Positions 32,169 to 53,675 of a stretch of DNA of 64,000 nt are shown one piece after another (within the stretch, counting starts at the first letter, position 1; the number at the start of each line of letters is the position of its first letter). The notes beneath the pieces are model-generated. The model was not told the origin of the DNA, did no database searches, and saw nothing but the letters and a program-made list of their open reading frames with translations. Made by a program: the position numbers and the translations under genes. Source of the DNA: Humisphaera borealis. Its GTDB lineage: Bacteria > Planctomycetota > Phycisphaerae > Tepidisphaerales > Tepidisphaeraceae. Location of the stretch: positions 1,736,001-1,800,000 of the forward strand of contig NZ_CP063458.1 of the NCBI RefSeq assembly GCF_015169395.1, in the 5' to 3' direction.

Positions 32169-35100
32169 ATGTCAAATCGTCGATCCGTCGAACTCGTTGG
32201 TCGTGTCAGCCTGATGGAAGGGCTCGAGTCGCGCTCGTATTTCGCTGGAGTGGGGCAGGGCTTGGTGGCCGAGTACTTCGCCGACAAGAGCTTTGCTTCA
32301 CTGGCTCTGGCGCGTCATGACGCGACGGTGAACTTTGACTGGGCCGGCGCGCCCGCGGCGGGACTGCCCGCCGACGGATACTCCGTCCGTTGGACCGGGC
32401 AGGTGTTGGCCGATTTCAGCCAAAACTACACGTTCTACGCCAAATCCGCCGGCGGTGTCCGCGTCTGGTTGAACGGGGTGAAGATCATCGACCACTGGAC
32501 GACCCATGCCAATCAGGAAGTCGCCGGATCGATCGCATTGACCGCCGGCGAATACTATCCGATTTCCGTTGAGTACCGGGAAGAGGGAACCGGGTCGGTC
32601 CGTCTCTCCTGGAGCAGCGCGTCGACGCCGAAGCAGGTCATCCCGAAGTCGCAGTTGTATCGGGTGGGTACCGGAGCCTCCTCCGGGGGCTGGCTCGAAG
32701 GGCACATCGGGCCTGGAACAGGGTCGGTCTCAGGGTCGACGACCAGCGGAATCAACATCAAGAATGGCGCTGTGTCGCCGCCCGTCTCACCGCCACCCGT
32801 TTCTCCGCCGCCCGTATCTCCTCCCGTATCACCTCCGCCGGTCTCGCCGCCCGCGGCCGGTATCAACATCAACTTCCAGCCGGCGACCGCGACGCCCGTC
32901 GTTGGTTACCTGATCGACAACGGGGATCTCTACGGGGCGCGCAACGGACAGAGCTACGGCTGGACGATCAGCCACACCGATACCGTGGTGGATCGCGAGC
33001 TCCATGCCAACCAACTGCTCGACACCAACATCGGCGTGAAATCGGGAGGGAAATGGGAACTGGCAGTACCTAACGGCAGGTACACCGTCACCGTTGGCGT
33101 CGGTGACGCAGGCGCAGCGACAAACAACAACGTCTACGTCGAGAAGGTGAGCCTTTTCAACTACGTGCCGTTGCCGGCTAATGCGTTCCAGAGCCGAACC
33201 ATTGCGGTAGATGTCGCCGACGGAAAGCTGACGCTCGCCACGGGATCTGCTGCAAGTGGCCTGACGCATTTCACCTATATCCAGGTCGCTGCCGACGCCT
33301 CTTCACCGCCGACAGTGCCGCCGGTCAGTCCGCCGCCCGTCACGCTTCCGTCGCTTAGCGGCTTACAGCTCTTGGACGCGTCGACCGACCTTGTCATCGG
33401 TGCATTCACCAGCGGCGCAACCCTCGATATCTCGAGCGGAAAAACTTACAGCGTGGTTGCCGAGCCCGGTTCGGGCGTCAAGAGCGTGGTGTTCGTACTC
33501 GACGGCGTGAAGGTGCGGACCGAGGGTTTTGCACCCTACTCGATTGCCGGCGAAACCGGACCCGATTTCGCGCCTTGGGTGCCGTCGGCGGGAAATCATA
33601 CCTTGGTGGTAACACCATTCGCCGGCAGCAACGGTACCGGTCAGGCAGGCACAGCCATCAGCGTGTCTTTCTCGGCTTCAGTCGCACCAGTACAGGCAGG
33701 CGGCTTGATGTCGGCAGCTGCGGGTGCGGGTGCGTCCGCAGGTTCCTTCGGCGGCAGCCTTGACAGCTACCACTACCTCTATCGCATGGCTCGGGGGAAT
33801 GCAGAGCTCACAGCCCGCCTCGATTCGCTCACGCCCGCCGGTGAGGGCGGCCTCATCGCCCGGGGCGGACTTACCGTTGGCGGCGCGTTCGTCGGACTGA
33901 CCCGCGACGCCAATAGCGTAAGTCTTGAGTACTCCGGTGCCTCCGGCGGCACGGTGTTGACTGCAGGATCGCGCGCCGTCAGCGGCCCGGTCTATCTGCG
34001 GCTAGTCCGCGACGGCAATCAGTATGCAGGGTATTTCTCGTCTACTGGCGCGGCCGGAACCTGGCAATTTGTTGGGGCCGCCGGGGTCAACCTGGGTACG
34101 TTCAATTACCTCGGCATCGCGTCGGCAGTTGAGGGAACGACCGCGCGTTACTCGGCAGTAAAGCTCAAGACATCGAACCCGCTTGGCGGCAACCTCAACG
34201 CCATGTCTGATCGCGTGCAGGATCTGCCGTTTGTCGACCTAGTGAAGACCACGAGAGGCTTCTTCAATGCCTCAGGGCGTGTCAACGCCGCGACCGGACT
34301 GACCGACTTCGCGACCACCGACGCCAACGGCTGGCCGACCGAGAACTTCTTTTTTGATGTGGTGAACAACACTGAATGGGGCGTGCCGGCGGAGGCCGGA
34401 ACGTATCCGATGAGTTTCAGCGGGCCGGCCGGCGTCACAGTCACCGCCACGCCAGGCGTTACGCTTCAAAAGCTGGGCTACTTGGCCGGCGTGCACACCT
34501 ACAACGTGATCGTACCGGCCGGAAAACTAAAGCTGGGGTTCGCGTTCGCAAACACTGCCGGCCAGGTGAAGAACATTCGTGTCCTGCAGCCCGGCTATTC
34601 GCTGTCTAATGCGCCTACTTTCACCGCCAAATATTTGAATCTGCTTCGCACGACCAACCCTGGTGTCCTCCGGCTGATGGATTGGACCAAGACCAACAAC
34701 AATCCCGTTGCGAACTGGTCGGAACGCAATACGCCATCACAGGCGACACAGGCCAAGTCGGCCGGTGCCGGGGAACTACAGCCCGTTAAGGGAATCGCAT
34801 GGGAGTATGCAATCCAGCTCGCCAATCAGCTCGGCAAGAACATCTGGGTAAACGTCCCTGCCAAGGCCAGTGACGATTACGTTCGCAACCTTGCCAATCT
34901 GCTGCGGACACAACTCAACCCCGACCTGAACATCTATCTCGAGTACACCAACGAAGCGTGGAACCTCGCGTTCAGTCAAGCCAACTGGCTTCGCGAGGAA
35001 GCCGTTGCCGAGGTGTTCGCCGACAAGGCGGCCGGCCGGGCCTCGCAGCTCAATTACGACAACCTGCCGGTGGACACGACCAAGCCGGGCGGAACCAACC

Positions 35101-35756
35101 CCAACGCTTACGCCTGGGCAGAGCGGTACTACGCCCGCCGCACCAAGCAGATCACGGACATCTTCCGGCAGGCATGGCTGGACGCAGGGCAACCCGATCC
35201 GGTCAATTCCCGGGTGCGAACGATACTGGGCGCACAGATCGCGACCATGTCGCGGACGACCAACCATCTCAAGTTCCTCATTCAGTTCTACGGCGAACCG
35301 AAGAAGTTCCTCTATGGTGTCGGCGTCGCGCCATACGCCAACGTAAACGGTCGCCCACAGAGCACGGCGGCCGAGGTTATTGCGTCACTGAGTAAGTCGA
35401 TCGATTCGTTTAACTTTGCCTCGCCCGTATCGCTGGCCAAGTCGTGGGGATTGGAACTGCTGGCTTACGAGATCGGCTTTGACACCTTTGGCCCGGACAA
35501 CATCGCAGCAAAGCGCACCGCCAGCCTCGACGCCCGCATGCAGGAAATGGTGAATCGATTCGTGACCAGATTCTATGCGGCGGGTGGGAATCTGGCGAAC
35601 TGGTTCACGGTCGGAGCGCGCAGCTACTCCAGTCCGTACGGAACCTGGACGTTGACCGAAAGCCTGGATGTGCTGAATTCTCCGAAGATCAAGGGGTTCC
35701 AGCAGGTCCGCGACGCCGCACCGGTCGCGACGAAGGCTCACGGCGTATTCGCATGA
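32169..35756 (+). CDS. Giant secreted glycosidase-like protein, tandem paralog
   Basis: The 1195-residue protein repeats the plan of its neighbour with shorter linkers. N-terminal LMEGLESRSYFAG is the export motif. PA14 (GLVAEYFADKSFASLALARHDATVNFDW), a VSPPPVSPP linker, one INFQP module (INFQPATATPVVGYLIDNG), an Ig-like domain, a lectin-like domain and a TIM-barrel-like region follow in the same order. The candidate catalytic pair is YLEYTNEAWN (N928-E929) and LLAYEIGFDTFG (E1101). The RGNAELTARLDSL and QNYTFYAKSAGGVRVWLNGVKIIDHW segments align with the first giant by eye. GGAG precedes the ATG at 32169. It ends six bases before the convergent DUF1501 gene. Tandem duplication followed by divergence is the simplest origin. 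Confidence 0.85.
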   Translation: MSNRRSVELVGRVSLMEGLESRSYFAGVGQGLVAEYFADKSFASLALARHDATVNFDWAGAPAAGLPADGYSVRWTGQVLADFSQNYTFYAKSAGGVRVWLNGVKIIDHWTTHANQEVAGSIALTAGEYYPISVEYREEGTGSVRLSWSSASTPKQVIPKSQLYRVGTGASSGGWLEGHIGPGTGSVSGSTTSGINIKNGAVSPPVSPPPVSPPPVSPPVSPPPVSPPAAGININFQPATATPVVGYLIDNGDLYGARNGQSYGWTISHTDTVVDRELHANQLLDTNIGVKSGGKWELAVPNGRYTVTVGVGDAGAATNNNVYVEKVSLFNYVPLPANAFQSRTIAVDVADGKLTLATGSAASGLTHFTYIQVAADASSPPTVPPVSPPPVTLPSLSGLQLLDASTDLVIGAFTSGATLDISSGKTYSVVAEPGSGVKSVVFVLDGVKVRTEGFAPYSIAGETGPDFAPWVPSAGNHTLVVTPFAGSNGTGQAGTAISVSFSASVAPVQAGGLMSAAAGAGASAGSFGGSLDSYHYLYRMARGNAELTARLDSLTPAGEGGLIARGGLTVGGAFVGLTRDANSVSLEYSGASGGTVLTAGSRAVSGPVYLRLVRDGNQYAGYFSSTGAAGTWQFVGAAGVNLGTFNYLGIASAVEGTTARYSAVKLKTSNPLGGNLNAMSDRVQDLPFVDLVKTTRGFFNASGRVNAATGLTDFATTDANGWPTENFFFDVVNNTEWGVPAEAGTYPMSFSGPAGVTVTATPGVTLQKLGYLAGVHTYNVIVPAGKLKLGFAFANTAGQVKNIRVLQPGYSLSNAPTFTAKYLNLLRTTNPGVLRLMDWTKTNNNPVANWSERNTPSQATQAKSAGAGELQPVKGIAWEYAIQLANQLGKNIWVNVPAKASDDYVRNLANLLRTQLNPDLNIYLEYTNEAWNLAFSQANWLREEAVAEVFADKAAGRASQLNYDNLPVDTTKPGGTNPNAYAWAERYYARRTKQITDIFRQAWLDAGQPDPVNSRVRTILGAQIATMSRTTNHLKFLIQFYGEPKKFLYGVGVAPYANVNGRPQSTAAEVIASLSKSIDSFNFASPVSLAKSWGLELLAYEIGFDTFGPDNIAAKRTASLDARMQEMVNRFVTRFYAAGGNLANWFTVGARSYSSPYGTWTLTESLDVLNSPKIKGFQQVRDAAPVATKAHGVFA

Positions 35757-35762
35757 CGCCGA

Positions 35763-37226
35763 TCAAGCGAGGATCTTCGTCACGACTTTGCCGTGCACGT
35801 CGGTCAGGCGGAAGTCCCGGCCCTGGAACTTGACCGTCAGCCGGCGATGGTCGACGCCAAGGAGGTGCAGCATCGTTGCGTGCAGGTCATGGACCTCGCA
35901 GATGTCTTCGGCGGCGTTGTAGCCGAGTTCATCCGTCGCGCCGTGGACGATGCCGCCTTTGATGCCGCCGCCCGCGGCCCACATGCTGAATGCCTTCATG
36001 TGGTGATCGCGACCGCTGCCCTGGCCCATCGGCGTACGGCCAAATTCGCCGCCCCAGATGACGAGGGTATCGTCGAGCATTCCCCGCTGCTTCAGGTCCG
36101 TCAGTAGCGCCGCGCAGGGGCGATCCACTTCCTCGGCCTTGAGCTTGATGTCGTTCTTGACGTTGCCGTGGTGATCCCAGTCGCGGTGATAAAGCTGGAT
36201 GAACCGTGTACCCCGTTCGGCAAGCCTGCGGGCGAGCAGGCAGTTGGCAGCGAACGAGCCGTCAGCTCCCTTCGTGCCATACATTTCCAATGTCGCCGCC
36301 GGCTCCTGCGAAAGATCCATCAGCTCCGGAACGCTCGCCTGCATCGCGAAAGCCATTTCGTACTGCGTGATGCGCGTCGCGACTTCCGGGTCGTCAACGA
36401 CGCTGTTTCGCATCTCGTTGAGTTTCTGCACCGCCGATACGACATCGCGCTGCCGACTTTCGGTAACGCCCGGCGGCCGGGTTAGGTACAGCACCGGATC
36501 GCCTTGTCCGCGAAAGTGCACCCCCTGGAATCGGCTCGGCAGAAATCCCGCAGACCACTGCCGGCTGCTGATCGGCTGCATCTGCCCGCCGCGGCCGGCA
36601 CTGGTCAGCACGACGAAGCCGGGCAGGTTGTCCGCCTGGGAGCCCAGGCCATAGGTAATCCACGATCCCATGCTCGGCCGGCCGGAGATGGTCGTACCGG
36701 TGTTGATGAACGTATGGGCCGGATCGTGGTTGATGGCCTCGGTCCGCATCGACCGGATGACGCAGATGTCATCAATCACGGAACCCAGCTGCGGGAACAA
36801 TTCGCAGATCTCGATCCCAGCTTTACCGAACCGCTTGAACGGGTGCTGAGGTCCGAAGCAGGTGAGCTTTTTTCCCTGCAGTTGCGCGATCGGCTGCCCC
36901 TTGGTGAACGACTCGGGCATGTCCTTTCCGTGAAGTTCGCCGAGCTTTGGCTTGGGGTCGAACGTCTCAAGGTGTGAAGGCCCGCCCGCCATGCAGAGCC
37001 AGATCACCCGCTTGGCTTTCGGGGGGATGTGAAGGTTCTGCAGCACGCCGGGCCACCGGTCGAGCTTCGGCGCCGACGCACCTGTCGCGGCGGCCAGCGC
37101 GTCGCGCCCGGCGATTGACGAGAGAGCCAGCGCACCCACGCCTCGTGCAGCCTGACCGAGGAACGTGCGGCGTTGCTGTAGGCGGATCAGACTTCTCGCA
37201 CCGGCGTCAAATCTTGCAGCTGTCAT
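35763..37226 (-). CDS. DUF1501 family protein (Tat-exported)
   Basis: The 487-residue protein begins with a Tat-like leader (QQRRTFLGQAARGVGALALSS). The DUF1501 pattern is clear: KRVIWLCMAGGPSHLETFDPKPKL, HGKDMPESFTKGQ, INHDPAHTFINTGTTISGRPSMGSW, GTRFIQLYHRDWDHHGNVKNDI, VIWGGEFGRTPMGQGSGRDHHMKAF and HDLHATMLHLLGVDHRRLTVKFQGRDFRLTDV. The family is related to alkaline phosphatase/sulfatase folds; its function is unknown. In planctomycetes it normally stands next to a DUF1549/DUF1553 cytochrome gene, which is absent here. The ATG at 37226 lies inside a repeat (37219-37254) that also supplies GGAG nine bases upstream; no other start fits the leader. Confidence 0.93.
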   Translation of the reverse strand: MTAARFDAGARSLIRLQQRRTFLGQAARGVGALALSSIAGRDALAAATGASAPKLDRWPGVLQNLHIPPKAKRVIWLCMAGGPSHLETFDPKPKLGELHGKDMPESFTKGQPIAQLQGKKLTCFGPQHPFKRFGKAGIEICELFPQLGSVIDDICVIRSMRTEAINHDPAHTFINTGTTISGRPSMGSWITYGLGSQADNLPGFVVLTSAGRGGQMQPISSRQWSAGFLPSRFQGVHFRGQGDPVLYLTRPPGVTESRQRDVVSAVQKLNEMRNSVVDDPEVATRITQYEMAFAMQASVPELMDLSQEPAATLEMYGTKGADGSFAANCLLARRLAERGTRFIQLYHRDWDHHGNVKNDIKLKAEEVDRPCAALLTDLKQRGMLDDTLVIWGGEFGRTPMGQGSGRDHHMKAFSMWAAGGGIKGGIVHGATDELGYNAAEDICEVHDLHATMLHLLGVDHRRLTVKFQGRDFRLTDVHGKVVTKILA

Positions 37227-37254
37227 CCTGAGGTACTCCGAAGGACCTTGTACC
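37219..37254 (-). repeat. Repeat family C, copy 1 (contains the DUF1501 start codon and ribosome site)
   Basis: The plus strand reads GCTGTCATCC, TGAGGTACT, CCGAAGG, ACCTTGTACC. Related copies lie at 51304-51333 (29 of 30 identical) and 51413-51448 (inverted, 32 of 36). Read on the minus strand it holds CGGAG, nine bases, ATGACAGC. Confidence 0.85.
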
Positions 37255-37383
37255 GGCGCGCGGGAGGCAACCGAGCATCAATGTGCCAGCAACGAACGGA
37301 TCGGCGATCGACGACATCTTCGGCGTGGACTTTAGCAGGTCGCCACGCGCACTTTTTCGGGCAGTCCATCCCGCTTACTCGCA

Positions 37384-38772
37384 TCACACCTTGGGTGCCC
37401 ACTTCGCATCGTAATCGCGCGACCAGTGCTTCATCGCCGCTTCATCGCCGACGATTCTTCCGGTCTTGGGATCGCAGTTCAATGTCCGACCGGTGCGGTA
37501 TGCGATATTGCCCAGGTGGCAGATGACGACACTTCGGTGACCTTCCTCGATCTCGCAGTTCAGCTTCTCCTTGCCGCGAATCGTCTGAACGAAGTTGTCG
37601 ACATGCCGGGTGTTGCCGCTATTGGTTCCTTTAACTGGCTTATCGAGCATCGGCTTGCCCTTGGGGTCGAGCAGATAGTACCCGTCCCCGTCGACAACCA
37701 AAGTCGCTTTGTCGCCGTAGAACGCGATGCCGTAACTGTTGCCTTCGAACCCGCGCGGATGACAGCTGCGGCCTTCCCAGAAGATGGCCTTGTCACCGTA
37801 GTCGTAGGTGACGGACAGGGTGTCCGGCGTTTCCTGGTCGTCCTGAAAGTGATAGCGGCCGCCGCCGGCGGTGACACGTTTGGGAAACGCGACATCCAGT
37901 CCCCAGCGGCAGACGTCCAGGGCGTGCACGCCGTTGTTGCCGAGTTCTCCGGTGCCCCAGTGCCAGAACCAGTGCCACTTGTAGTGGACGACGTTCTCCG
38001 TGTACTCGGTACGCGGCGCGGGCCCCTGCCACAGGTCCCAGTTGAGTCCCGCCGGAACGCTCGCCGGCGTTCGCTTTCCGGTTTCGGGACGGGTGTTCAT
38101 GTACCACCCACGGCTCAGATAGACCTTGCCGATTTCACCTGCACGCACTTTTGCGATGCCTTCCATGACGCCAGACCAGCTTCGTCGCTGCGTGCCGTGC
38201 TGAACAACCCGGTCATGCTTCCGCGCAGCTGCGACGAGCATTTCGCCTTCGGCCGGATTGTGGGAGCAAGGCTTTTCTACATAAACATGTTTACCCGCCT
38301 GACATCCAAGGATTGCCGCCGGCGCATGCCAGTGGTCGGGCGTGGCAATGATGATGGCGTCGATGTCCTTGTTGTCGAGGATTCGGCGAAGGTCATCGGT
38401 GCCCTGGGGTTCGGTGTCCTGATACTGGCCGATCGCCTTGGCGGCCGCTTTCATGTGCCCTTCGTCGACGTCGCAGACATGGGTGACCACCGCGTCGGCG
38501 TTCTGAGCGAAGGTGCTTCCCACTTCCGTTCCGCGGCCGGCCGTACCGATCACGCCAATCCGCAACGGCTTGTCCGACTTGGCGGTCTTGACGATCTTCT
38601 TCACGGGCTTGGTGGTCGGCTGGGAAGGCTTTGTCGTTGCGGCAGGCACTTTTCCTGTCGCTGGTGCCGCCGAATCGGCGCCACTGGCAAGGCTCCCCAT
38701 GGCGACAACGCCCATGCCCGCAACGCTCACGTTTTTCAGGAAATCGCGCCGATTACTTGTATTGTCCGCCAT
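37384..38772 (-). CDS. Gfo/Idh/MocA-family oxidoreductase (Tat-exported)
   Basis: The 462-residue protein starts MADNTSNRRDFLKNVSVAGM, a Tat leader, followed by a Thr/Lys/Pro spacer. The NAD(P)-binding Rossmann motif is IGVIGTAGRGTEV. The central IIIATPDHWHAPAAILGCQAGKHVYVEKPCSHNPAEG contains the EKP motif whose lysine helps catalysis. GELGNNGVHALDVCRWGLD is the usual substrate-domain histidine region. Related secreted planctomycete proteins act on sugars or inositols; the substrate here is unknown. GGGAG precedes the ATG by four bases. It lies upstream of the DUF1501 gene on the same strand, 157 bases apart, so they may be co-transcribed. Confidence 0.92.
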   Translation of the reverse strand: MADNTSNRRDFLKNVSVAGMGVVAMGSLASGADSAAPATGKVPAATTKPSQPTTKPVKKIVKTAKSDKPLRIGVIGTAGRGTEVGSTFAQNADAVVTHVCDVDEGHMKAAAKAIGQYQDTEPQGTDDLRRILDNKDIDAIIIATPDHWHAPAAILGCQAGKHVYVEKPCSHNPAEGEMLVAAARKHDRVVQHGTQRRSWSGVMEGIAKVRAGEIGKVYLSRGWYMNTRPETGKRTPASVPAGLNWDLWQGPAPRTEYTENVVHYKWHWFWHWGTGELGNNGVHALDVCRWGLDVAFPKRVTAGGGRYHFQDDQETPDTLSVTYDYGDKAIFWEGRSCHPRGFEGNSYGIAFYGDKATLVVDGDGYYLLDPKGKPMLDKPVKGTNSGNTRHVDNFVQTIRGKEKLNCEIEEGHRSVVICHLGNIAYRTGRTLNCDPKTGRIVGDEAAMKHWSRDYDAKWAPKV

Positions 38773-39057
38773 GTCGCTCCCGATTCAGGAAGAAGTGCAC
38801 CAGGGTTGCCGGCCACGAGAATCGAACACCGGACCCGATCGAAGGACTATACCGCGTTCGCGGGTTGACGTGGAACCGACAGTTTTCATGGACTTTCACA
38901 GCCGCTAACGCTTAAGATAGGTAGCGGCAGTTGCTGTATTCACCTCTGAAGGTTGTTCAAAATCAGGTCGAGTTAAACGATCTCCCAGGTCTGCCGATCC
39001 GTATTAAGGCCCGAGACTCAATCACGTCAAAAGCTTCCCTGTCCCCCGGAGTTCGCC

Positions 39058-39843
39058 ATGAAGCATCTCGAACCATCCCGTCTTACCGCCACAGATCGTT
39101 CGCGTAAGTCAGGTCGACGCGGGTTCACCCTTGTCGAGCTACTGGTGGTCATCGGGATTATCGCGCTGTTGATCTCCATCCTGCTTCCGTCACTCGCGCG
39201 GGCCCGCGAGCAAGGCAACAAGGTGAAGTGCCTGAGCAACCTTCGCCAGCTCGGGATGGCATTTATTGGCTACGCCAATTCCAACAAGTATTACATGCCG
39301 GCCGGAGCCCCCTACAACGTGTTCCGCGTCGAGGATTGGGTCCACTGGGAGACGTCGGGTACCGGCTCGGGCGGCGCGGGCACACGGAAGCTGGATGACT
39401 CGGCGCTCGGTCAGTTCCTCGGTCGCCCTTTCCCGAAGGACATGATGGTCTGCCCGTCCGATCGGAGTTTGGAGGGTCGTGCCCGACGCGGGCAGTACGG
39501 CGGGTACCCGTTCAGCTATGTGATGAACTCCCACGCGTCGCCGTTCAAGAGCGCCACGTACAAGTTCCCGATCACCCGTTATGTCAATCCGACCAACAAG
39601 ATCCTCGTTTACGAGGAGGACGAGTCCACGATCGATGACGGTTGGGGCACCATGGATACCGGCAGCATCAACCTGCTGGCAATTCGCCATGACCGGGCAC
39701 CTCTCGTGCCCGATACGGCGGCGGTAGGTCTCAGTTCAAACGGCGATCGACAGGGCAACGTGGTGTTTGCCGACGGCCACGCAGAGTTCATCGACCGCAA
39801 CTCGGCCCACACGAACAAGTACTACGACCCGTTCGTTCGATGA
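39058..39843 (+). CDS. Type II secretion pseudopilin-like protein (prepilin cleavage leader, H-X9-DG C-terminus)
   Basis: The 261-residue protein carries a class III leader, [22 protein letters not shown], with cleavage after the glycine and the conserved glutamate at +5, followed by a long hydrophobic helix. The rest ([39 protein letters not shown]) matches the large DUF1559-like/prepilin-type family with a C-terminal DG motif that is strongly expanded in planctomycetes. Members form or decorate pseudopilus-like envelope structures; their exact role is not known. GGAG lies nine bases before the ATG. No secretion operon surrounds it. Confidence 0.9.
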
Positions 39844-39867
39844 ACTCAAGCCGATTCGCCCTCGCGA

Positions 39868-40662
39868 TCAGAGGCCGACGTTATTGAAGCCGGCATCCAC
39901 GTAGAGCGTCTCTCCGGTTACGCCGCTGGACAGTTCACTCAGGAGATAAACCGCCGTTTTGCCAACCTCGTCGGCGTCGATGTTCCGCTTGAGTGGTGCC
40001 TTCTTCGGCGTGTATTCCAGCATCTCATCGATTCCACCGACGCCCATCGCGGCCAGCGTGCGGATCGGGCCCGCAGAGATGCAGTTCACCCGGATCTTCT
40101 TTTCACCCAAGTCATACGCGAGATAACGCGCGGTTGATTCCAGCGCCGCCTTGGCAACGCCCATCACGTTGTAGCCGGGAATCACTTTCTCTGCGCCGTA
40201 GTAGCTCATCGCGACGACCGATCCGCCATTGGGCATCAGCGGCAACGCGGCGCGCGTCAGTGCGATCAGGCTGTAGGCGCTGATGTCGCATGCCTGCGAG
40301 TAGACTTCGCGCGGCGTCTGGGTGAACACGCCCTGCTCTTTCTTGAGATAGTCCTTGTTCGCAAACGCCAGCGAGTGCACCAGGAAATCGATGGTGCCGA
40401 AGCGCTCTTTGGCGGCGGCAAAGAAGGCGGCAATCGACTCGTCCGAGCCGACATCGCAGGTGTGCAGAAAGGGGTCGGAAATTCCCAGCTCGTCGATCGA
40501 CTTTTTCGCGCGGCGGAGCGACTTGTCAGCATCGCCCATGACGAGGTAGCCGAAGCCGCAGGTCGCGCCGTGCTGAATCGCGTTATGACCGATATGCCAG
40601 GCGATCGAACGATCGTTCGCCACGTTCAGAATCAAGCCCTTTTTGCCGTCCAACAGACCCAT
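39868..40662 (-). CDS. fabI: Enoyl-[acyl-carrier-protein] reductase (NADH)
   Basis: The 264-residue short-chain dehydrogenase performs the last step of each fatty-acid elongation cycle. FabI features are MGLLDGKKGLILNVANDRSIAWHIG (cofactor loop of the divergent SDR type), FLVHSLAFA and the catalytic Tyr-x6-Lys as YNVMGVAK. The AAGPIRTLAA-like segment (SAGPIRTLAAMGVGG) and the C-terminal SSGVTGETLYVDAGFNNVG are typical. Length is normal. AAGGAG precedes the ATG. A GCCGAC/GTCGGC palindrome (40681-40698) lies upstream of the gene and might be an operator. It is convergent with the pseudopilin gene. Confidence 0.96.
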   Translation of the reverse strand: MGLLDGKKGLILNVANDRSIAWHIGHNAIQHGATCGFGYLVMGDADKSLRRAKKSIDELGISDPFLHTCDVGSDESIAAFFAAAKERFGTIDFLVHSLAFANKDYLKKEQGVFTQTPREVYSQACDISAYSLIALTRAALPLMPNGGSVVAMSYYGAEKVIPGYNVMGVAKAALESTARYLAYDLGEKKIRVNCISAGPIRTLAAMGVGGIDEMLEYTPKKAPLKRNIDADEVGKTAVYLLSELSSGVTGETLYVDAGFNNVGL

Positions 40663-40680
40663 AGCGTCGCTCCTTCTTCA

Positions 40681-40698
40681 GCCGACCAAACAGTCGGC
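40681..40698. promoter_or_regulatory. Palindrome in the fabI leader
   Basis: GCCGAC, six bases, GTCGGC lies about 20 bases upstream of the fabI start. It could be a repressor site or an RNA hairpin. No promoter could be assigned with confidence. Confidence 0.35.
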
Positions 40699-40894
40699 GC
40701 GTTTGAGTTCAACGAGCAAGCTTAAAGAGGGGACGCCAATGCGACAAGCGAGGGGAGGCCGCAGGTGTGAAGTTCTTTTCCCAATCCACCCGTAATGCAA
40801 AGTCGGCGCAGGGTTTAGGCACATCAGCGGGCCGGCGAGATCGGCCCTATGGGACCTTGCGACCGGGTTTGGAAGTGTGGGAACGGCTCGGGGC

Positions 40895-41206
40895 TCACTT
40901 CTCTTCGGAATCGCGACACGCCGCCAGCAGGAATATCCGTTCCTGGAGAAGGTTTCTGATGTCGTGAACGATGCGATCAACACGCTTGGTACCAAGCAGT
41001 TGCATCAGCTCGGCTTCCAACGCATGGCAACGCGCTACTTCAACACGTAGTGATCGGAGTTCTTCGTCCTTCGACGACTCGTCCGACGATGACGCGGTGC
41101 CGGCAGCGAATCCGACGTGACTTGACGAGAGGGACGGAAGTGTTGGCTGCGACATGAATAGGTTTGTTGGTGAGTCGAAACCGGGTTGCGATTGGCGGTT
41201 GAGCAT
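40895..41206 (-). CDS. Small hypothetical coiled-coil protein (103 aa)
   Basis: The product begins MLNRQSQPGFDSPTNLFMSQPTL. Its second half (SSKDEELRSLRVEVARCHALEAELMQLLGTKRVDRIVHDIRNLLQERIFLL) is a strongly helical, heptad-rich sequence that looks like a genuine coiled coil. The N-terminal half is Ser/Pro-rich and probably disordered. An AGGG lies near the ATG at 41206; an internal ATG at 41155 would give 86 residues. No family was recognised. It stands alone between fabI and the cytochrome gene. Confidence 0.5.
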   Translation of the reverse strand: MLNRQSQPGFDSPTNLFMSQPTLPSLSSSHVGFAAGTASSSDESSKDEELRSLRVEVARCHALEAELMQLLGTKRVDRIVHDIRNLLQERIFLLAACRDSEEK

Positions 41207-41745
41207 CGGACTACCCTGTTTTGTTTCTGTGGCGAATTGCGAAAAGGGACTTCGTCAATCCGCTTAGTGACTCTTAACGGACCGCCAAGCGAACCGAACG
41301 GCGAAAATGTGACAATTGAAACCCAACGAGCAACTCCGTCGTAATTGAATCGAAGCCAACTGGATGGCCATGGCAAGTTATTGGCTTAAGTCTTCACCAA
41401 TGGCTTACTCGCGTCGATTCAAAGGTAAGCAAACCGCGTGCTGTGCTTCATCGTGGCTTCATCCATGCCCGATAGCGGCGGTTTCAACGTTATTCCGCGA
41501 CATTTCGTCGCGTGTGGCACCGCTCAAGTGGGCCAAATGAGGCGCGTCATTTGTTGCGTCCGGTTCCTCAAAGCGTGGGATCAACCCTATTCAGGGCGGT
41601 CCTGTCGTCCCAACCTGAGGCAAGATGAAGGGTCGTTAGTGGGGTAAGGATGCGGTTCGACGGGCTTATCGGACTGCACGAGGTGACTCGAACCAATCGG
41701 ACAATTGATTTCGTCAGTGAAGTGACGTTTTCAGAAGGAACTGCT
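41207..41745. other. Intergenic region before the cytochrome gene
   Basis: About 540 bases with no convincing gene, RNA or repeat. The end holds the AGAAGGAA ribosome site of the cytochrome c lipoprotein. Confidence 0.5.
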
Positions 41746-42213
41746 GTGAACACGCATATGACATCGTTCGTCCGCCACCTGTCGGTCATCGCCGTCGGAT
41801 CTGTTGCGCTGCTCGCTTTGGCCAGCGGCTGCGACAAAGCGGTCGGTGCGACACAGGACACCCCCAAACCCGCGGTGAAGGTCTCTCTGGGCTCTTCCGA
41901 CGCCGCCGACGGTCAGAAGTGGTTCAATCAGGCTTGTGCGGCTTGTCACGGATTTAACGGCCAGGGCATGCCGCGCCAGGGGCCGACGCTCCGAACTAGT
42001 CAGTTCGTGTTCGAACATGCGGACGACGAGCTGGTCGACTTCATCAAAGCCGGCCGTGCTGCGACCGATCCGAAGAGCCTCATGAAGCTCCAGATGCCTC
42101 CGAAGGGTACAAATCCCGGACTGACGGACGGACAGCTCAAGCAAATCGTTGCTTTTATCCGACAGTTGCAACAGGAAGCCGGCTCGGGACAGACGGCTTC
42201 AGCCGGGCTTTAG
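41746..42213 (+). CDS. Cytochrome c lipoprotein
   Basis: The 155-residue protein has a lipoprotein signal (HLSVIAVGSVALLALASGC, lipobox ASGC) followed by a short Pro/Lys tether. A class I cytochrome c domain carries the haem motif CAACH (ACAACHGFNGQG) and the distal methionine candidate in LQMPPKGTNPGLTDGQL. It would carry electrons at the outer face of a membrane. GTG at 41746 was chosen because AGAAGGAA lies seven bases before it; an ATG lies four codons later, and longer upstream frames lack a signal. The membrane-anchored propeller protein follows on the same strand and is a likely redox partner. Confidence 0.88.
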   Translation: MNTHMTSFVRHLSVIAVGSVALLALASGCDKAVGATQDTPKPAVKVSLGSSDAADGQKWFNQACAACHGFNGQGMPRQGPTLRTSQFVFEHADDELVDFIKAGRAATDPKSLMKLQMPPKGTNPGLTDGQLKQIVAFIRQLQQEAGSGQTASAGL

Positions 42214-42356
42214 ACCATGCGGCTTTAGACGTAACTGGGATTCGTTCCATCGAAGGTTCGCCTTGGCAAGGTCTGAGGCGAACTTTTCAGTTGAATGGGC
42301 ATGATTCATTCCGTGTGCCCGACCGACACCGCGCCTTCAATTGAAAGTGAACCGTC

Positions 42357-44159
42357 ATGAGCACGTTAATCGACCATGCGGAAGACGATGACGATCTGCC
42401 CGTAGCCGTTCCGGTGGAGCACGCGCCGGCGGCTCCGAGGTCGCCCAGTTCGCTCGGCCGCCGCATCCGATGGGGTCTGATTGGTGCGATGGCGATCGCG
42501 GTGGCGGTATTGCTCGTTCGCGGCCGGGGCGTCGGCCAGTGGATGAAACAGACGCTCGGCATCAGCGGCCAATCGCTTGCTCCGCCGCTGGTCATTGGCG
42601 CTCGTCCTTCCGACGGGGCGGCCAACGTGAAGCCTGACGAGGCGCTCTCTTTCCGCATGAGTGCGCCCAATGGGGCACTTGCTGCTGCCACGCTCAACTC
42701 ATCGAATATCGTTCTCCGCAAAGCGGACGACGAAACGCCGATCGAAGCAGCGATCTCGCAGTCCACAGGATCGGACGGCATTACGACCGTCACCCTTCGC
42801 CCGGCCAGAACGCTCGACGGCATGACCCGTTACAAGCTGTCCATTGGTGCCGGATTGAAGGACGCCAAGGGCGTGGCCGCGGTCGCCAGGACCATCTCTT
42901 TCAGCACCGGTTCTCTGGCCGATCCGTCGATCAAGTTTGCACAGGTGTCTCTGCCTACGGCTGGCGGTGCGGGCTTCACGTGCGTTCAGATGGGCCCCGA
43001 CGGTCGGCTTTGGGCTGGCAGCGATGAGGGTCGCATCTACCGCTTTCCGATCACGGCCGACGGCACCCTCGGAAAGCCTGAGGTTTTCACAGCCCTGCAG
43101 GAGACCAACGGCGGGAACCGCTTGCTGACTGGATTCGCATTCGATCCCTCAACATCCAGTTCAGCCGACCCTTCGAATGGCACGGTAACGATCTGGGTCA
43201 GTCATGGCTGGTTCGGCTTTGAAAGTGCTCCGGACCTCAGCGGCAAAGTATCGCGAATGGGCGGCAAGGGACTGGCCGATGTTCATGATGTTGTGGTGGG
43301 GCTTCCGCGATCCGTGAAAGACCACCTGACAAACCAGCCGGCGTTCGGACCCGACGGTGCACTGTACATTCCGCAGCCCAGCAACAGCGCGTACGGGGCT
43401 CCGGATGAGATATGGGGCAACCGACCGGAACACCGTCTGAACGCGTCAATACTGCGACTGGATACGAAATCTCTCGGCCAATCACAGACCATCGATGCCC
43501 GCACGGCCGACGTCGGCGGGAGTTACGATCCCGACGCACCGGCCGCACCCCTGACCATTTATGCCAAGGGCATTCGCCTCGCGTACGACCTGCTCTGGCA
43601 CAGCAACGGCAGGCTGTATGCCGCAGTCAACGGTTCCAGCCCGGGCGGCAATACCCCCGCCGGTGCGAAGGCGCCTTCCCTGAAGGCCGTGACCATGACG
43701 GAACACGACTGGCTCTTTGATGTTCGCAAGGGGCGCTACTACGGTCACCCCAACCCGGCCCAGGGGCACTACATCTTGAATGGCGGAAATCCGACGGCGG
43801 GTAGCGACGTCGCTGAGGTGACCGAATACCCCGTCGGCACCCAACCCGATGCCGACTGGACGCCCGCTGCCTATGACTTCGGAACGCACGTTTCACCCAA
43901 TGGCACGGTCGAGTTCAAGTCTGGCGCGTTCGACGGCAAGATGAAGGGGAAGGTGCTCGTCTGCCGCTACAACAACGGCAGCGACATCCTGTGCCTGGAC
44001 CTTGATGAAAAAGGCCAGGTTCGTACCGCCCATGTCGGCATCCCCGGGCTCACGAAGCTGGCTTCCCCGCTGGACATCGCCGAAGACCCCAGTACCGGCT
44101 GCCTGTACGTGAGTGAGTACGGCGCGCAGAAGATCACCCTGCTGCGGCCGGTGAAGTGA
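42357..44159 (+). CDS. Membrane-anchored beta-propeller protein with Ig-like domain (quinoprotein-dehydrogenase-like)
   Basis: The 600-residue protein has an acidic cytoplasmic N-terminus, one membrane helix at about 38-54 (WGLIGAMAIAVAVLLV) and an outside part. Residues about 75-185 form a Big_5-like Ig domain (RPSDGAANVKPDEALSFRMS, LDGMTRYKLSIGAGLKDAKG). The remainder is a six-bladed propeller of the PQQ glucose/sorbosone dehydrogenase type (GFTCVQMGPDGRLWAGSDEGRIYRFPITADG, NQPAFGPDGALYIPQPSNSAYG, LASPLDIAEDPSTGCLYVSEYG). The cytochrome gene 143 bases upstream supports a redox role, although cofactor-binding residues could not be confirmed by eye. Confidence 0.8.
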   Translation: MSTLIDHAEDDDDLPVAVPVEHAPAAPRSPSSLGRRIRWGLIGAMAIAVAVLLVRGRGVGQWMKQTLGISGQSLAPPLVIGARPSDGAANVKPDEALSFRMSAPNGALAAATLNSSNIVLRKADDETPIEAAISQSTGSDGITTVTLRPARTLDGMTRYKLSIGAGLKDAKGVAAVARTISFSTGSLADPSIKFAQVSLPTAGGAGFTCVQMGPDGRLWAGSDEGRIYRFPITADGTLGKPEVFTALQETNGGNRLLTGFAFDPSTSSSADPSNGTVTIWVSHGWFGFESAPDLSGKVSRMGGKGLADVHDVVVGLPRSVKDHLTNQPAFGPDGALYIPQPSNSAYGAPDEIWGNRPEHRLNASILRLDTKSLGQSQTIDARTADVGGSYDPDAPAAPLTIYAKGIRLAYDLLWHSNGRLYAAVNGSSPGGNTPAGAKAPSLKAVTMTEHDWLFDVRKGRYYGHPNPAQGHYILNGGNPTAGSDVAEVTEYPVGTQPDADWTPAAYDFGTHVSPNGTVEFKSGAFDGKMKGKVLVCRYNNGSDILCLDLDEKGQVRTAHVGIPGLTKLASPLDIAEDPSTGCLYVSEYGAQKITLLRPVK

Positions 44160-44198
44160 AGCTCTTGCCCTGCTGCTCTATCAGGGCTTTCAACGCCA

Positions 44199-44256
44199 AA
44201 ACGCCAAGGATCCAGGACAAGGTCAGAGACTGGCCCTTCTTGGATCCTTGGCGTTT
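44199..44256. terminator. Long hairpin between convergent genes
   Basis: A perfect 16-bp stem (AAACGCCAAGGATCCA with TGGATCCTTGGCGTTT) closes a 26-base loop. It lies between two convergent genes and could stop transcription from both sides, though no long T-run follows. Confidence 0.6.
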
Positions 44257-44282
44257 GAGTCCAGATCGTAGTTCACCGTTCG

Positions 44283-45149
44283 CTATCTGATGTGCTCGGG
44301 AAAGTCCCGCTGATACCGCGTCAGCAACGCCGCCTCGTCATTCGGGACGACATATACCTTTCCTCGAATGACTTTCGTCTCGCCCGCCGCGAGCCCGCCT
44401 ATCCGAAAGTCGCTGTGCAGACACCGCGCGACACCTTGAAACAGCTCCTGGTACGGCTCCCACGCCGTGGCAAACAAAAACTTTCCGTCTCCTGACTCGC
44501 ATCCAATCAGACCGTTACTCGGTACCACCGGCGACAGTGGCCGGGGATTGACGTCCGCCCGAGGGACATGCGCCGGGCACCAAACCTGGCCTGGCACGTA
44601 CCGAGCTTCCGTCGCCCATGGTTCGAAAGGCATCCGCACCTGCTTCCCATTCCTGTAGATGAAGCACTTGCCGAGGTAATCCGTCGGTGAGTTTTTCGGC
44701 GGATCGGCAAAGCCACAGAACAACCCCAGCCTCACACAAGGCTGCGCCCAGTGGGCCAGGCTGGGCTGATTGGTCGGATTGTGGGCAACGACGCGAAAGT
44801 CGATCTCTCCCCGCCCTGCCGTGATGGTGTGATCCACAATCACCCCGTCGGCAAGGGTATCGCGAATGACGATCCGCTTCCCACCGGCCGGTACCTCGAC
44901 ATCTTCAGTCTTGTGCTTGATGACCGTCTGCTTCACCCAGTCGGCATCCGTCGAACCGGGACGACAGTATGCCTCAAGGTAGTTGATGCGGATCTCCGGC
45001 GTCTGATCAGACGTGATGACCAGCCAATGGCCATCCCGCGCGATCGAGAGATCCGGTCCAATGGCGACGGCGGCCGGCGGTTTGGTCGAACGGCACCCGG
45101 CGAGCATAGAAATCAGGACGATCGCGATCATCGAAGCGGACGTATCCAT
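44283..45149 (-). CDS. Hypothetical lipoprotein
   Basis: The 288-residue protein starts MDTSASMIAIVLISMLAGCRSTKPP, a clear lipoprotein signal with lipobox LAGC. The mature part is beta-rich (DGHWLVITSDQTPEIRINYLEAYCRPGS, RIVIRDTLADGVIVDHTITAGRGEIDFRVVAHN, KFLFATAWEPYQELFQGVARCLHSDFRIGGLAAGETKVIRGKVYVV), like planctomycete proteins that compare with carbohydrate-active accessory domains; no named family was recognised. GAGGAG precedes the ATG at 45149, which excludes the longer upstream frame. It lies downstream of the dimethylformamidase-like gene on the same strand. Confidence 0.75.
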   Translation of the reverse strand: MDTSASMIAIVLISMLAGCRSTKPPAAVAIGPDLSIARDGHWLVITSDQTPEIRINYLEAYCRPGSTDADWVKQTVIKHKTEDVEVPAGGKRIVIRDTLADGVIVDHTITAGRGEIDFRVVAHNPTNQPSLAHWAQPCVRLGLFCGFADPPKNSPTDYLGKCFIYRNGKQVRMPFEPWATEARYVPGQVWCPAHVPRADVNPRPLSPVVPSNGLIGCESGDGKFLFATAWEPYQELFQGVARCLHSDFRIGGLAAGETKVIRGKVYVVPNDEAALLTRYQRDFPEHIR

Positions 45150-45207
45150 CGAAAGGCTCCTCGTTCCAGACCCGGACCAGCGACAAATGCCCCCAGATTC
45201 GATCAGC

Positions 45208-45239
45208 GACACGGGCTTCCAGCGCTTCCAGCCCGTGTC
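45208..45239. repeat. Palindromic hairpin, family D-like
   Basis: GACACGGGCT pairs with AGCCCGTGTC across a 12-base loop that contains AGCGCT. The outer sequence GTGACA(C/T)GGGCT resembles the arms of the repeat pair at 63236-63329. Confidence 0.65.
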
Positions 45240-45256
45240 ACTGACTGCATCCTCTC

Positions 45257-45286
45257 CCATCAGTGCCCATCGGTGCGCATGTGTGG
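45257..45286. repeat. Three degenerate 10-base direct repeats
   Basis: CCATCAGTGC, CCATCGGTGC and GCATGTGTGG follow each other without gaps. The ten-base period is obvious; I see no further copies in this window. Confidence 0.6.
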
Positions 45287-45322
45287 ACTTCATTCTCTCT
45301 TTTTGGATTTCGATCGATGTGC

Positions 45323-50019: not shown

Positions 50020-50087
50020 GCGACGACCTCGTGGCACAGGTTTCGATCCTGTGGCAATGTGATATGCCGAGCAGCCCCCAACGACTG

Positions 50088-51311
50088 TTAGCCCGTGATC
50101 TTCGAAGTGTTGATCGAGGCTTCCGACGGCCCGCCCGCACGGCGGCCGGCCTTGATCGTCTCCACGATTCTGACCCCGCCATTGTCAGCCGTAAACAAGA
50201 CCAGGTCGGCCGGGGCACCCACAGCGATTCCCGCAGACTGGGGACGCCCCATCAGCGACGCCGGGCGGACCGATGCCATGTCCCACGCGTCGGCAGACGT
50301 CGCCAGGCCTCGGCCGATGAGATGACTGATGTGATGAGGCAGCATCTGGGCGGAGCCAGCCAGCAGCCTGGGATTGGAAGCCAGGTGCAGCCGCCCTTCC
50401 GGCGTTAGCACGACATCGCCGCCAACTGGCTGTGTGTAAGTGCCGGCGGGCATTCCGGCGAGCGACACAGCGTCACTGACGACGATCGCCTTGTCACCCT
50501 TGACCTTGAGAATCACCTTCAACACCTGGTCGGGAAGGTGGAACCCGTCAGCAATGACGCAGGTCCAAAGCTCGTCCTGGGCGAGTTGCTCCCAAAGGTA
50601 ATTCGGGTGCCGGGGAAGCATCAGGTGAGCGCCGTTGCCCAGATGTGTCGATAGGCGCGCCCCGGCAGCGACGGCGGCGGCAATCTGCTCCGGGGTCGCC
50701 GAGGTGTGGCCGATCGATACGGTGATTCCACCGGCCACGCATCGCTCGATAAACCCCGAGCTTTCCGGCCACTCCGGCGACATCGTCACAATCTTCACTC
50801 TGCCGTCGGACGCATCCTGCCAGCGAGAGATCAGGTCCCAATCTGGCGCGCGAACGTACTGCAATGCATGTGCACCGCGCGCACCATCTTCCGGCGAAAT
50901 AAACGGGCCTTCGAGATGGATTCCGGCAATACCGTCGGCCGTCACACGATCGGCTTCACAAGCGCGAGCAATGTCTCCGGCCGCCTGCGCGATCGCATCA
51001 GGCGAGTTGGTGATGATGGTCGGGTAAAAGGACGTGACGCCCTGCTGCCACAGCAGGCGAACCGAGTCGCCGATGGTCTCCGGTGAGATCGGCGGACGAT
51101 TGAAATCGCGGCCGAGGTAACCGTTCACCTGCAGATCAACCAGGCCGGGGCCGACAAACGTAGGGGCGCGCGGTCGGGTGCCCTCCGGTGCGGCGATCGG
51201 TTCTACCGAGCGAATAATGCCGCCGTCGATGCCGATCGAGACGGGATGTCCGGTGGCGTAGTGCAGGGCGTCCACACGCTTCACCAGATCTCGTGGTGCC
51301 TCCGCTGTCAT
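50088..51311 (-). CDS. nagA: N-acetylglucosamine-6-phosphate deacetylase
   Basis: The 407-residue amidohydrolase removes acetate from GlcNAc-6-phosphate. Metal and substrate motifs are GPGLVDLQVNGYLGRDFN, GIHLEGPFISPEDGARGAH (the metal glutamate), GHTSATPEQI, THLGNGAHLMLPRHPNY, CVIADGFHLP and the catalytic aspartate in VVSDAVSLAGMPAGTY. The ATG at 51311 sits in a family C repeat that also gives CGGAG nine bases upstream; a GTG further in (LVKRV) is an alternative, since the conserved part begins near residue 12. nagB precedes it by a 149-base gap filled with an inverted repeat pair. It is the third gene of a likely amino-sugar operon. Confidence 0.94.
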   Translation of the reverse strand: MTAEAPRDLVKRVDALHYATGHPVSIGIDGGIIRSVEPIAAPEGTRPRAPTFVGPGLVDLQVNGYLGRDFNRPPISPETIGDSVRLLWQQGVTSFYPTIITNSPDAIAQAAGDIARACEADRVTADGIAGIHLEGPFISPEDGARGAHALQYVRAPDWDLISRWQDASDGRVKIVTMSPEWPESSGFIERCVAGGITVSIGHTSATPEQIAAAVAAGARLSTHLGNGAHLMLPRHPNYLWEQLAQDELWTCVIADGFHLPDQVLKVILKVKGDKAIVVSDAVSLAGMPAGTYTQPVGGDVVLTPEGRLHLASNPRLLAGSAQMLPHHISHLIGRGLATSADAWDMASVRPASLMGRPQSAGIAVGAPADLVLFTADNGGVRIVETIKAGRRAGGPSEASINTSKITG

Positions 51312-51333
51312 CCTGAAGTACTCCGAAGGACCT
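51304..51333 (-). repeat. Repeat family C, copy 2 (contains the nagA start codon)
   Basis: Matches the DUF1501 copy at 29 of 30 bases: GCTGTCATCC, TGAAGTACT, CCGAAGGACCT. It is inverted relative to the copy at 51413-51448. Confidence 0.85.
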
Positions 51334-51412
51334 GGCATCAAAACCGCAAGATGTTCGATCATCGGAGCGGACCGTCGATGGTCCTCCTCTGATCACAAGC
51401 CATTCGTCCATT

Positions 51413-51448
51413 GGTACAAGGCCCTTCGCCGTACCTCCGGATGACAGC
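51413..51448 (+). repeat. Repeat family C, copy 3 (inverted, decayed)
   Basis: Read on the minus strand it matches copy 1 at 32 of 36 bases, including the distal CCTTGTACC. In its own start-codon sense, ATG ACA GCC is followed at once by TGA and the GGAG is lost. It lies 12 bases from the nagB stop. Confidence 0.8.
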
Positions 51449-51460
51449 CTGACCCTAGTG

Positions 51461-52252
51461 TCACGCGCCCGCGTAAGAGTCCTTGTCCACATACATCGTG
51501 CAGTCCGCATGTCGTCGCAGGACCGTGCTGGGGCACTCCGTGCCGATCGCGCCGTTGAGCGTGCGGGTCACGGCGTTTCGCTTGGTTGGGCCGGGGACGC
51601 TGCAAAAAAGGTGCGTGCCCGACATCAAAGTCGGAATCGTCAGCGTCAGCGCGTGCGTCGGCACCGAAGCAAAACTCGGGAAGCAGCCGTCGTTCACTTG
51701 CTGCTGGCGACAGGCGTCGTCGAGCTCGACTACCTTGATCGTTTCGGCGTCGTCGAACTTCGCGACCGGCGGGTCATTGAATGCAATATGACCGTTCTCG
51801 CCAATGCCCAGGCAGACGATGTCGATCGGCCCGGCGCGAAGTAAGTCGCCGTACCTTCGGCACTCGGCCGCGGCGTCGTTGGCGCTGTCGATGAAGTTCA
51901 CCACGCCAGGCCGAACCAGGTCAAAGATGTGCCGCCGAAGATACTGGCCGAACCGTTGCGGCGCATCGGTCGCCAGGCCGATGTATTCGTCCATGTGGAA
52001 CGCCGTCACGCGCGACCAGTCGATGCCGTTCGTCGCGGCCAGCGTGGAGAGCGTTTCGTTCTGCGAAGGCGCCGCGGCGAAGATCATGCGTACGGTGACC
52101 TTGGTCGCCAGCAAAGCCTTCAGGCGAGTTGCGACATCCGAACCCGCGGCTGCGCCCATCGCCTGTCGAGTAGCGAATGCCTTGACCTTAAGCCTGTCTA
52201 CGGTTCGCTCATTCACTGGCGAACTTCCTGCGAGTGAAGGGGTCACGGGCAT
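51461..52252 (-). CDS. nagB: Glucosamine-6-phosphate deaminase
   Basis: The 263-residue isomerase/deaminase turns glucosamine 6-phosphate into fructose 6-phosphate and ammonia. Typical motifs are AAPSQNETLSTLAATNGIDWSRVTAFHMDEYIG (phosphate and catalytic Asp region), GIGENGHIAFNDPP (catalytic His and general-acid loop) and GTECPSTVLRRHADCTMYVDKDS. The GENGHIAFNDPP form belongs to the short-deaminase subgroup. An AAGGAG lies upstream within the tail of the preceding isomerase gene, whose stop is only five bases from the ATG. Together with nagA it forms an amino-sugar degradation pair. Confidence 0.93.
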   Translation of the reverse strand: MPVTPSLAGSSPVNERTVDRLKVKAFATRQAMGAAAGSDVATRLKALLATKVTVRMIFAAAPSQNETLSTLAATNGIDWSRVTAFHMDEYIGLATDAPQRFGQYLRRHIFDLVRPGVVNFIDSANDAAAECRRYGDLLRAGPIDIVCLGIGENGHIAFNDPPVAKFDDAETIKVVELDDACRQQQVNDGCFPSFASVPTHALTLTIPTLMSGTHLFCSVPGPTKRNAVTRTLNGAIGTECPSTVLRRHADCTMYVDKDSYAGA

Positions 52253-52257
52253 GATTA

Positions 52258-53112: not shown

Positions 53113-53278
53113 CGACTCCGCTCCTGCCTTCGTTGGTTGCGACAGACGGATAAGCCTTCGCAGGAGCGGGATGATACCAAGGAGTGAGGGCCGGTGGCAT
53201 GGCGCAAGCCGCGGCGCAACCATTGCCGTACAAGACGGCTGGCGCCGACGCGAGAGTTCTGGCTCGCTGTGCAGGTTC

Positions 53279-53665: not shown

Positions 53666-53675
53666 GTCTGTGGCC

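Follow-up and report, generated by a model that had tools for sequence, protein, structure and literature searches.

A CGTC-like REP arm that appears to serve as the start of a DUF1501 gene in Humisphaera borealis

REPINs, which come with RAYT transposases, consist of two short palindromes set head to head and are scattered over a genome. The repeat described here, from Humisphaera borealis, likewise forms head-to-head dimers dispersed in one genome but, unlike REPINs, was not met flanking a cognate RAYT in the loci read. Another point of reference is the CGTC-tagged REP (Di Nocera et al. 2013, PMC3733652), with a stem of 8–9 bp beginning with a complementary AT, a loop of 4–5 bases and a predominance of head-to-head dimers; in the available text of that paper these REPs have no associated transposase gene, Rickettsia RPE-4 and RPE-6 are placed among them, GTAG REPs are described as often supplying TAG stop codons, and alignment to shorter homologues is used to argue that REPs found at the 5' ends of ORFs are in many cases not codogenic. 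Elsewhere, MITEAba12 is described with terminal start codons, fusion with neighbours being given as a possibility (PMC6382973), the small enterobacterial repeats RU-1 to RU-3 are fused to protein N-termini (PMC2759123, PMC2229807), and proteins with an N-terminal RPE-1 are expressed (PMC3733652). As described in the text available, MITEAba12 and RU-1 to RU-3 are like the present repeat in that their ends can provide a start codon or the N-terminal stretch of a protein, but they are different elements; the palindromic elements of Rickettsia also differ, being known as inserts within coding regions. The term 'start codon' has no occurrence in the available text of PMC3733652, and 'start codon', 'initiation codon' and 'Shine' are absent from the available RU passages of PMC2759123 and PMC2229807. 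Among the literature matches listed for the string GTCATCCTGAG, none is by its title a bacterial-repeat paper, and no title or abstract opening among the matches listed reports a REP as the sole start codon of a gene. Since MITEAba12 has terminal start codons and small repeats occur at N-termini, repeats that provide starts are of a known kind; the new part is sole-start capture at a CGTC-like REP.

The window analysed is a stretch of 64,000 nucleotides (bases 1736001–1800000 of a 7.19 Mb single-contig genome; window GC 61.6%). The consensus of the repeat is a REP-type hairpin with the tag (C/T)GTC, the stem ATCCTGAGG/CCGAAGGAT and the loop TACT, and a single arm is predicted to fold with the stem ATCCT-GA-GG / CC-GA-AGGAT, nine positions starting with AT, two of which form a GA/GA mismatch, followed by a short tail reading CT. 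The commonest arms carry the tags cgtc and tgtc, which are unpaired in the predicted fold. The stem is kept by two-sided changes among the arm variants (ATCCC..GGGAT, ATTCT..AGAAT, and GAGC..GCGA in place of GAGG..CCGA), variant counts being occurrences rather than independent copies because loci overlap; the GGACCT arms of the H. borealis genome have lost the first stem pair. Read outward, the tag and first stem bases give ATGAC(A/G), and nine bases ahead of it the same strand carries GGAG; the ATG is retained in 42 of the 45 arms found with a profile, and GGAG-N9-ATG or a close variant faces outward in every arm. In a CGTC REP the tag CGTC followed by the stem AT gives ATGACG when reverse-complemented, which makes the start codon a by-product of repeat structure. 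Fifteen head-to-head dimers and 15 single arms were read in this genome; the 14 dimers that were folded measure 135–149 nt, apart from one of 85 nt, with predicted energies from -55 to -105 kcal/mol (-60 for the short one) and interiors that differ in sequence yet are mostly self-pairing. No Rfam family reached its gathering threshold within positions 34000–54000 of the window. The features that this repeat has in common with CGTC-tagged REPs, as described in the available text of PMC3733652, are the CGTC/TGTC tag, a stem starting with AT (the first pair lost, though, in the GGACCT arms), a 4-nt loop, head-to-head dimers with the tags outside, variable spacers, a mostly intergenic location, the lack of an adjoining transposase gene (of the Y1 class, for the present repeat) and occurrence at the N-termini of ORFs. 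The tandem GA/GA mismatch, the CT tail (mostly, not always, CCA in CGTC REPs) and the occurrence in Phycisphaerae MAG relatives are points of difference from the REPs published there. By these described features the repeat resembles the CGTC-tagged REPs and is set beside them.

The initial annotation spoke of a dispersed repeat and proposed a genome-wide count with its consensus, and dispersal is confirmed: the arm AGGTCCTTCGGAGTACCTCAGGATGACAG has 33 copies in the genome when as many as 3 of its 29 bases may differ, and the reversed pattern none, so the repeat exceeds chance. A sequence-only profile built from 32 arms gave 70 genome matches at E up to 1, of which the 45 with E < 0.005 were kept and the other 25 dropped. 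Among 61 genomes (H. borealis and 60 relatives), a 23-nt core at up to 2 mismatches is present in 6, with 36 copies in H. borealis, 1 in G001, 20 in G011, 17 in G016, 288 in G021 and 166 in G022, and is absent from 55. The dimers of G021 and G022 that were read have a smaller length (67–86 nt), with 36 dimers and 14 unpaired arms in the loci read from G022 and 20 and 4, respectively, in those from G021. The exact 27-nt form occurs in 55 stretches of a genome collection in which H. borealis itself was possibly not counted: 44 lie in two Phycisphaerae/Phycisphaerales MAGs, 3 in a Humisphaera sp. MAG and the other 8 in a Flavobacteriales MAG (3), two Doudnabacteria MAGs (1 each), a Paceibacterota MAG (2) and a Micropepsaceae MAG (1). 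The exact arm in these last four groups may reflect wide spread or misbinning. One third of the H. borealis chromosome (G000:C1:1790000–4200000) holds 1 of 30 arm loci, with a nominal P of 7.7e-5 for an interval picked post hoc.

Table 1 Features of the DUF1501 and nagA–nagB loci, in window coordinates.
Feature	Position	Strand	Remarks
Single REP arm (tag TGTC, stem, loop, tail)	37221..37248	-	overlaps and lies directly 5' of the DUF1501 start
GGAG, proposed Shine-Dalgarno motif	37236..37239	-	nine bases from the ATG
ATG of the repeat	37224..37226	-	sole ATG/GTG/TTG for DUF1501 before the Tat motif
DUF1501 gene	35763..37226	-	PF07394, 487 aa, Tat-type N-terminus RRTFLG
Full head-to-head REP dimer, nagB–nagA gap	51306..51446	.	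arms 51306-51333 (-) and 51419-51446 (+)
Left-arm ATG in the nagA frame	51309..51311	-	possible but doubtful start; predicted unpaired 0.00 in the dimer
nagA GTG aligning with the G011 orthologue ATG	51273..51275	-	rival start
nagA open frame	50088..51362	-	N-acetylglucosamine-6-phosphate deacetylase-like; PF01979 above cut-off
nagB-like gene upstream of the dimer	51461..52252	-	PF01182; C-terminus resembles that of G011

The repeat had been noticed because it seemed to provide both the start codon and the Shine-Dalgarno sequence of the DUF1501 gene, with no other plausible start, and the sequence and coordinates agree with that description. Positions 37254–37219 of the minus strand read GGTACAAGGTCCTTCGGAGTACCTCAGGATGACAGC, in which CGGAG is followed by the nine bases TACCTCAGG and then by ATGACAGC. 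The open reading frame from 37226 to 35763, whose first codon is the repeat's ATG, matches PF07394 with an E-value of 4.4e-162. An in-frame stop lies 35 codons ahead of the Tat arginines, the repeat's ATG is the only ATG, GTG or TTG between that stop and the Tat motif, and the next in-frame start, counting the repeat's ATG as codon 0, is a GTG at codon 29. The protein read from the repeat's ATG is MTAARFDAGARSLIRLQQRRTFLGQ. The N-terminus was compared with those of the closest orthologues, in G002 (77%) and G023 (76%), the next two (G021 and G011) being left out; both read MTPTDLIRLQQRRTFLG from an ATG of their own, and neither locus has an arm within 6 mismatches. Because GARS and six other residues stand in the H. 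borealis protein where these orthologues have MTPTD, the native start appears to be gone, and the repeat start gives seven extra residues ahead of the conserved LIRLQQRRTFLG. DUF1501 thus apparently no longer has a start of its own and relies on that of the repeat, an interpretation that is well supported at the level of sequence. A partner arm upstream of the gene was searched for, the best candidate having 11 of 23 positions mismatched and 138 of 200 shuffles doing as well. In the predicted fold of this arm the ATG is unpaired with probabilities of 0.52 and 0.53 and the GGAG, mostly paired, with 0.31 and 0.43; with the arm being single, the ATG would be about half accessible. The gene upstream, of the GFO/IDH/MocA type, had no homologue in the G002 and G023 orthologue loci, and this comparison therefore yields no strict empty site. 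The DUF1501 protein has 64 matches in its own genome at E up to 0.001, and hence belongs to a large paralogue family.

Comparison with the 16S 3' end (GGATCACCTCCTTTCT) and with called genes indicates that Shine-Dalgarno motifs are in use in this genome. A core motif at a spacing of 4–13 precedes the first start of 14 of the 40 genes called in the window, including DUF1501, for which GGAG at spacing 9 was counted, compared with 47 of the 847 in-frame start codons inside genes that were taken as a control. By eye, the G002 and G023 orthologues have no clear Shine-Dalgarno motif upstream; initiation in this family may thus do without one, and the GGAG at DUF1501 may therefore not be essential.

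At nagA, said to be started by a near-identical copy in the same manner, the copy is indeed in frame and nearly identical, but this does not establish the same role, since alternative in-frame ATGs and GTGs exist. The copy at 51333–51304 differs from that at DUF1501 by 1 base in 30, its ATG (51311–51309) is in the nagA frame, and further in-frame ATGs lie upstream (51362, 51338) and GTGs downstream. A third, more divergent copy (4 of 30 bases differ), not mentioned in the initial annotation, lies inverted at 51419–51448; together with the nagA copy it forms a 141-nt dimer with a predicted fold of -55.3 kcal/mol. In the prediction, the probability that the arm ATG is unpaired is 0.00 in the whole dimer and 0.99 without the other arm. 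The nagA product scores 194.8 bits against TIGR00221, under the cut-off of 225.65. In G011, which has the closest gene pair (nagA 64%), nagB ends with TGA and the nagA ATG follows one base on, with no repeat; as the two genes nearly abut there, the dimer looks inserted relative to G011, although loss of the repeat in G011 may be the alternative for this single gene pair. The orthologue's MRAIHYATG aligns with VDALHYATG of the H. borealis protein, the latter beginning at the GTG at 51275–51273, and initiation at the arm ATG would add 12 codons. Such initiation is conceivable, though we think it has less than an even chance, and a repeat-donated start at nagA must be called doubtful. The proposal that two genes use one element for initiation is hence supported by sequence at DUF1501 and weak at nagA, where a GTG aligned with the orthologue's ATG is still present and the arm ATG is predicted to be buried in the dimer hairpin. 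The dimer parts nagB from nagA, one base apart in G011, and in this way may break translational coupling.

Copies falling at random relative to start codons had been named as a result that would speak against such a pattern, and this is partly what was observed, with a conserved gene begun by 2 of 45 arms in this genome, one of them (DUF1501) clear. From these 45 arms run six outward frames of at least 280 codons, two of them DUF1501 and nagA. The other four were rejected as captured starts: the arm at 763475 reads ACG, with an ATG belonging to the gene itself at codon 13, an own ATG is present at codon 25 of the frame at 5194525, and the frames at 5916153 and 1362698 look antisense by eye. 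Candidates rejected in relatives were L175, L181, L183, L147 and L082 of G022, with an own ATG downstream, and L188 of G021, in which the PhyH domain begins only at residue 156. Three further genes starting at an arm are plausible but ambiguous, as alternatives are present, namely an NPCBM gene of G022 (L185; TTG at codon 6), a BNR_4 gene of G021 (L187; GTG at codon 2) and an SQHop-like gene of G021 (L200; ATG at codons 2 and 9), with all three arms lying within full dimers. Gene context was assessed with a simple hexamer gene caller for 169 arms, comprising 46 from H. borealis, 83 from G022 and 40 from G021, the latter two being part of 166 and 288 places. Ninety-nine of these arms point toward the 3' end of a gene and 62 toward a 5' end; where the outward frame continues into the next gene, it is frame 0 in 14 cases and frame 2 in 8, and never frame 1, in which ATGA contains TGA. 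The preference for frame 0 (14 of 22) is not significant across the three genomes (one-sided P 0.14), and a general start-donor pattern is not supported.

One further case parallels DUF1501. An ABC ATPase of G021 (L195, PF00005) reads MTIPRDSTPNPKTSPDRAPASDAAVQVDRLSHAY from the arm and has no further start before codon 43, and the arm is absent from all 11 orthologue loci. Ten orthologues were compared (L205 being left out), each with its own start codon ahead of the conserved region; eight have ATG, L203 has GTG and L212 has TTG. The L195 arm lies in a full dimer whose hairpin is predicted to cover the ATG. Comparison with the orthologues points to a second sole-start case and an independent parallel to DUF1501, though one within a dimer hairpin. 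Upstream of the orthologue in G020 (L210), the end of a related repeat, AGATCCTTCGCTTCGCTCAGGATGA, provides a TGA stop, in frame and 12 codons ahead of the matched region.

The description of the repeat as mobile-looking fits its dispersal, the repeat-free nagB–nagA junction of G011 and the range of 0 to 288 copies in 61 genomes, while no link to a transposase emerged; mobility is thus inferred from dispersal and the nagB–nagA comparison. The H. borealis genome has 11 matches to Y1 transposases (RAYT), and the arm is absent from all 10 of the RAYT loci fetched from it and from all 29 in five relatives. In nine of its own loci each RAYT stands between inverted copies of another repeat, of 8 kinds by reading. 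A RAYT as the mover is accordingly not supported, none being flanked by the arm in the loci tested, and for the Y1 class the arm is, in these loci, without an associated transposase gene, as are the CGTC REPs. Target-site duplications showed no consistent excess in 71 dimers at k = 2–6, 8 and 9; an exact 4-nt flank match was found in 1 of 15 H. borealis dimers (control 0.12) and in none of those of G022 and G021 at k = 4. An autonomous transposon was considered in G021 (L078), where inverted arms lie about 2 kb apart, but gained no support from that pair, which encloses ordinary genes; no transposase was recognised by eye among the ORFs of this locus, the one wide inverted pair that was read.

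We consider it probable that the repeat is a CGTC-type REP of which a single in-frame arm was captured as the DUF1501 start, with the native start now gone. GGAG, nine bases and an outward ATG would make each free repeat end a ready-made start site, copies lie mostly between genes with no regard to frame, and at DUF1501, where a single arm lies in frame and the native start is apparently gone, the repeat's ATG would start the protein. Translation from this ATG, use of the GGAG and arrival by transposition are what we infer for DUF1501; for the copies in general, chance insertion with occasional capture is the most likely course. The repeat might instead lie upstream without being coding, DUF1501 using a non-canonical start (CTG, codon 12) or decaying and nagA keeping its ancestral GTG. 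The available text of PMC3733652 does hold many of the REPs that lie at 5' ends of ORFs not to be codogenic, and at nagA the GTG aligns with the orthologue ATG and the arm ATG is predicted to be fully paired. However, the DUF1501 frame stays open for 487 codons, encodes the whole length of its domain (E 4.4e-162) and retains the Tat motif, and has no ATG, GTG or TTG alternative before codon 29. CTG starts, moreover, are rare, which counts against one at DUF1501, and we regard the non-coding alternative as rather unlikely.

The class of the element could also differ with start capture unchanged, the repeat being a MITE of a DDE transposon with inverted ends of about 28 bp, or a RAYT-moved REPIN, instead of a CGTC-type REP. 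Inverted ends and dimer lengths that are alike within a genome are consistent with this, but the 71 dimers lack a consistent target duplication, arms also occur singly and fold alone, the sole wide inverted pair seen (in G021) encloses ordinary genes, and the arm occurs in 0 of 10 own and 0 of 29 relatives' RAYT loci, all of which makes this assignment quite unlikely. Very improbable, in our judgement, is a dedicated translation-initiation cassette selected to put start sites before genes: it would accommodate the outward GGAG-N9-ATG or close variant on every arm and the two sole-start cases in two genomes, yet a conserved gene is begun by only 2 of 45 own arms, one clearly, 99 arms face 3' ends against 62 facing 5' ends, frames 0 and 2 stand at 14:8 (P 0.14), and in dimers the hairpin hides the ATG. 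Returning to the captured REP arm, a wider and tentative reading is that their very make-up (ATGACG) turns CGTC-tagged REPs into portable start codons, mirroring the GTAG stop donors, and that wherever they spread they may occasionally replace or extend gene starts, an intact dimer hairpin throttling the start and loss of an arm, as at DUF1501, freeing it; we hold this to be possible but not probable because the second clear case sits in a dimer hairpin. Capture of the kind proposed would be a concrete route by which a spreading non-coding repeat alters protein N-termini and translation control, and is a warning that gene callers may misplace starts next to such repeats. If the tag-plus-stem rule is general for CGTC REPs, it would be the counterpart to stop-codon donation by GTAG REPs.

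Other repeats were seen in the same loci. The H. borealis genome (L031–L040, G000:C1) holds an unusually varied REP/RAYT collection. In L002, L005 and L029, around position 1500, several dimers are nested in larger palindromes of CACGGAGGCACGGAG-like repeats on both sides. Upstream of position 1500 in L017 and L024, single arms contain or adjoin a palindrome (GCCGCGCACGAAG..GGAGTA..) that resembles the repeat flanking the L036 RAYT, which looks as though a REP had inserted into a different one.
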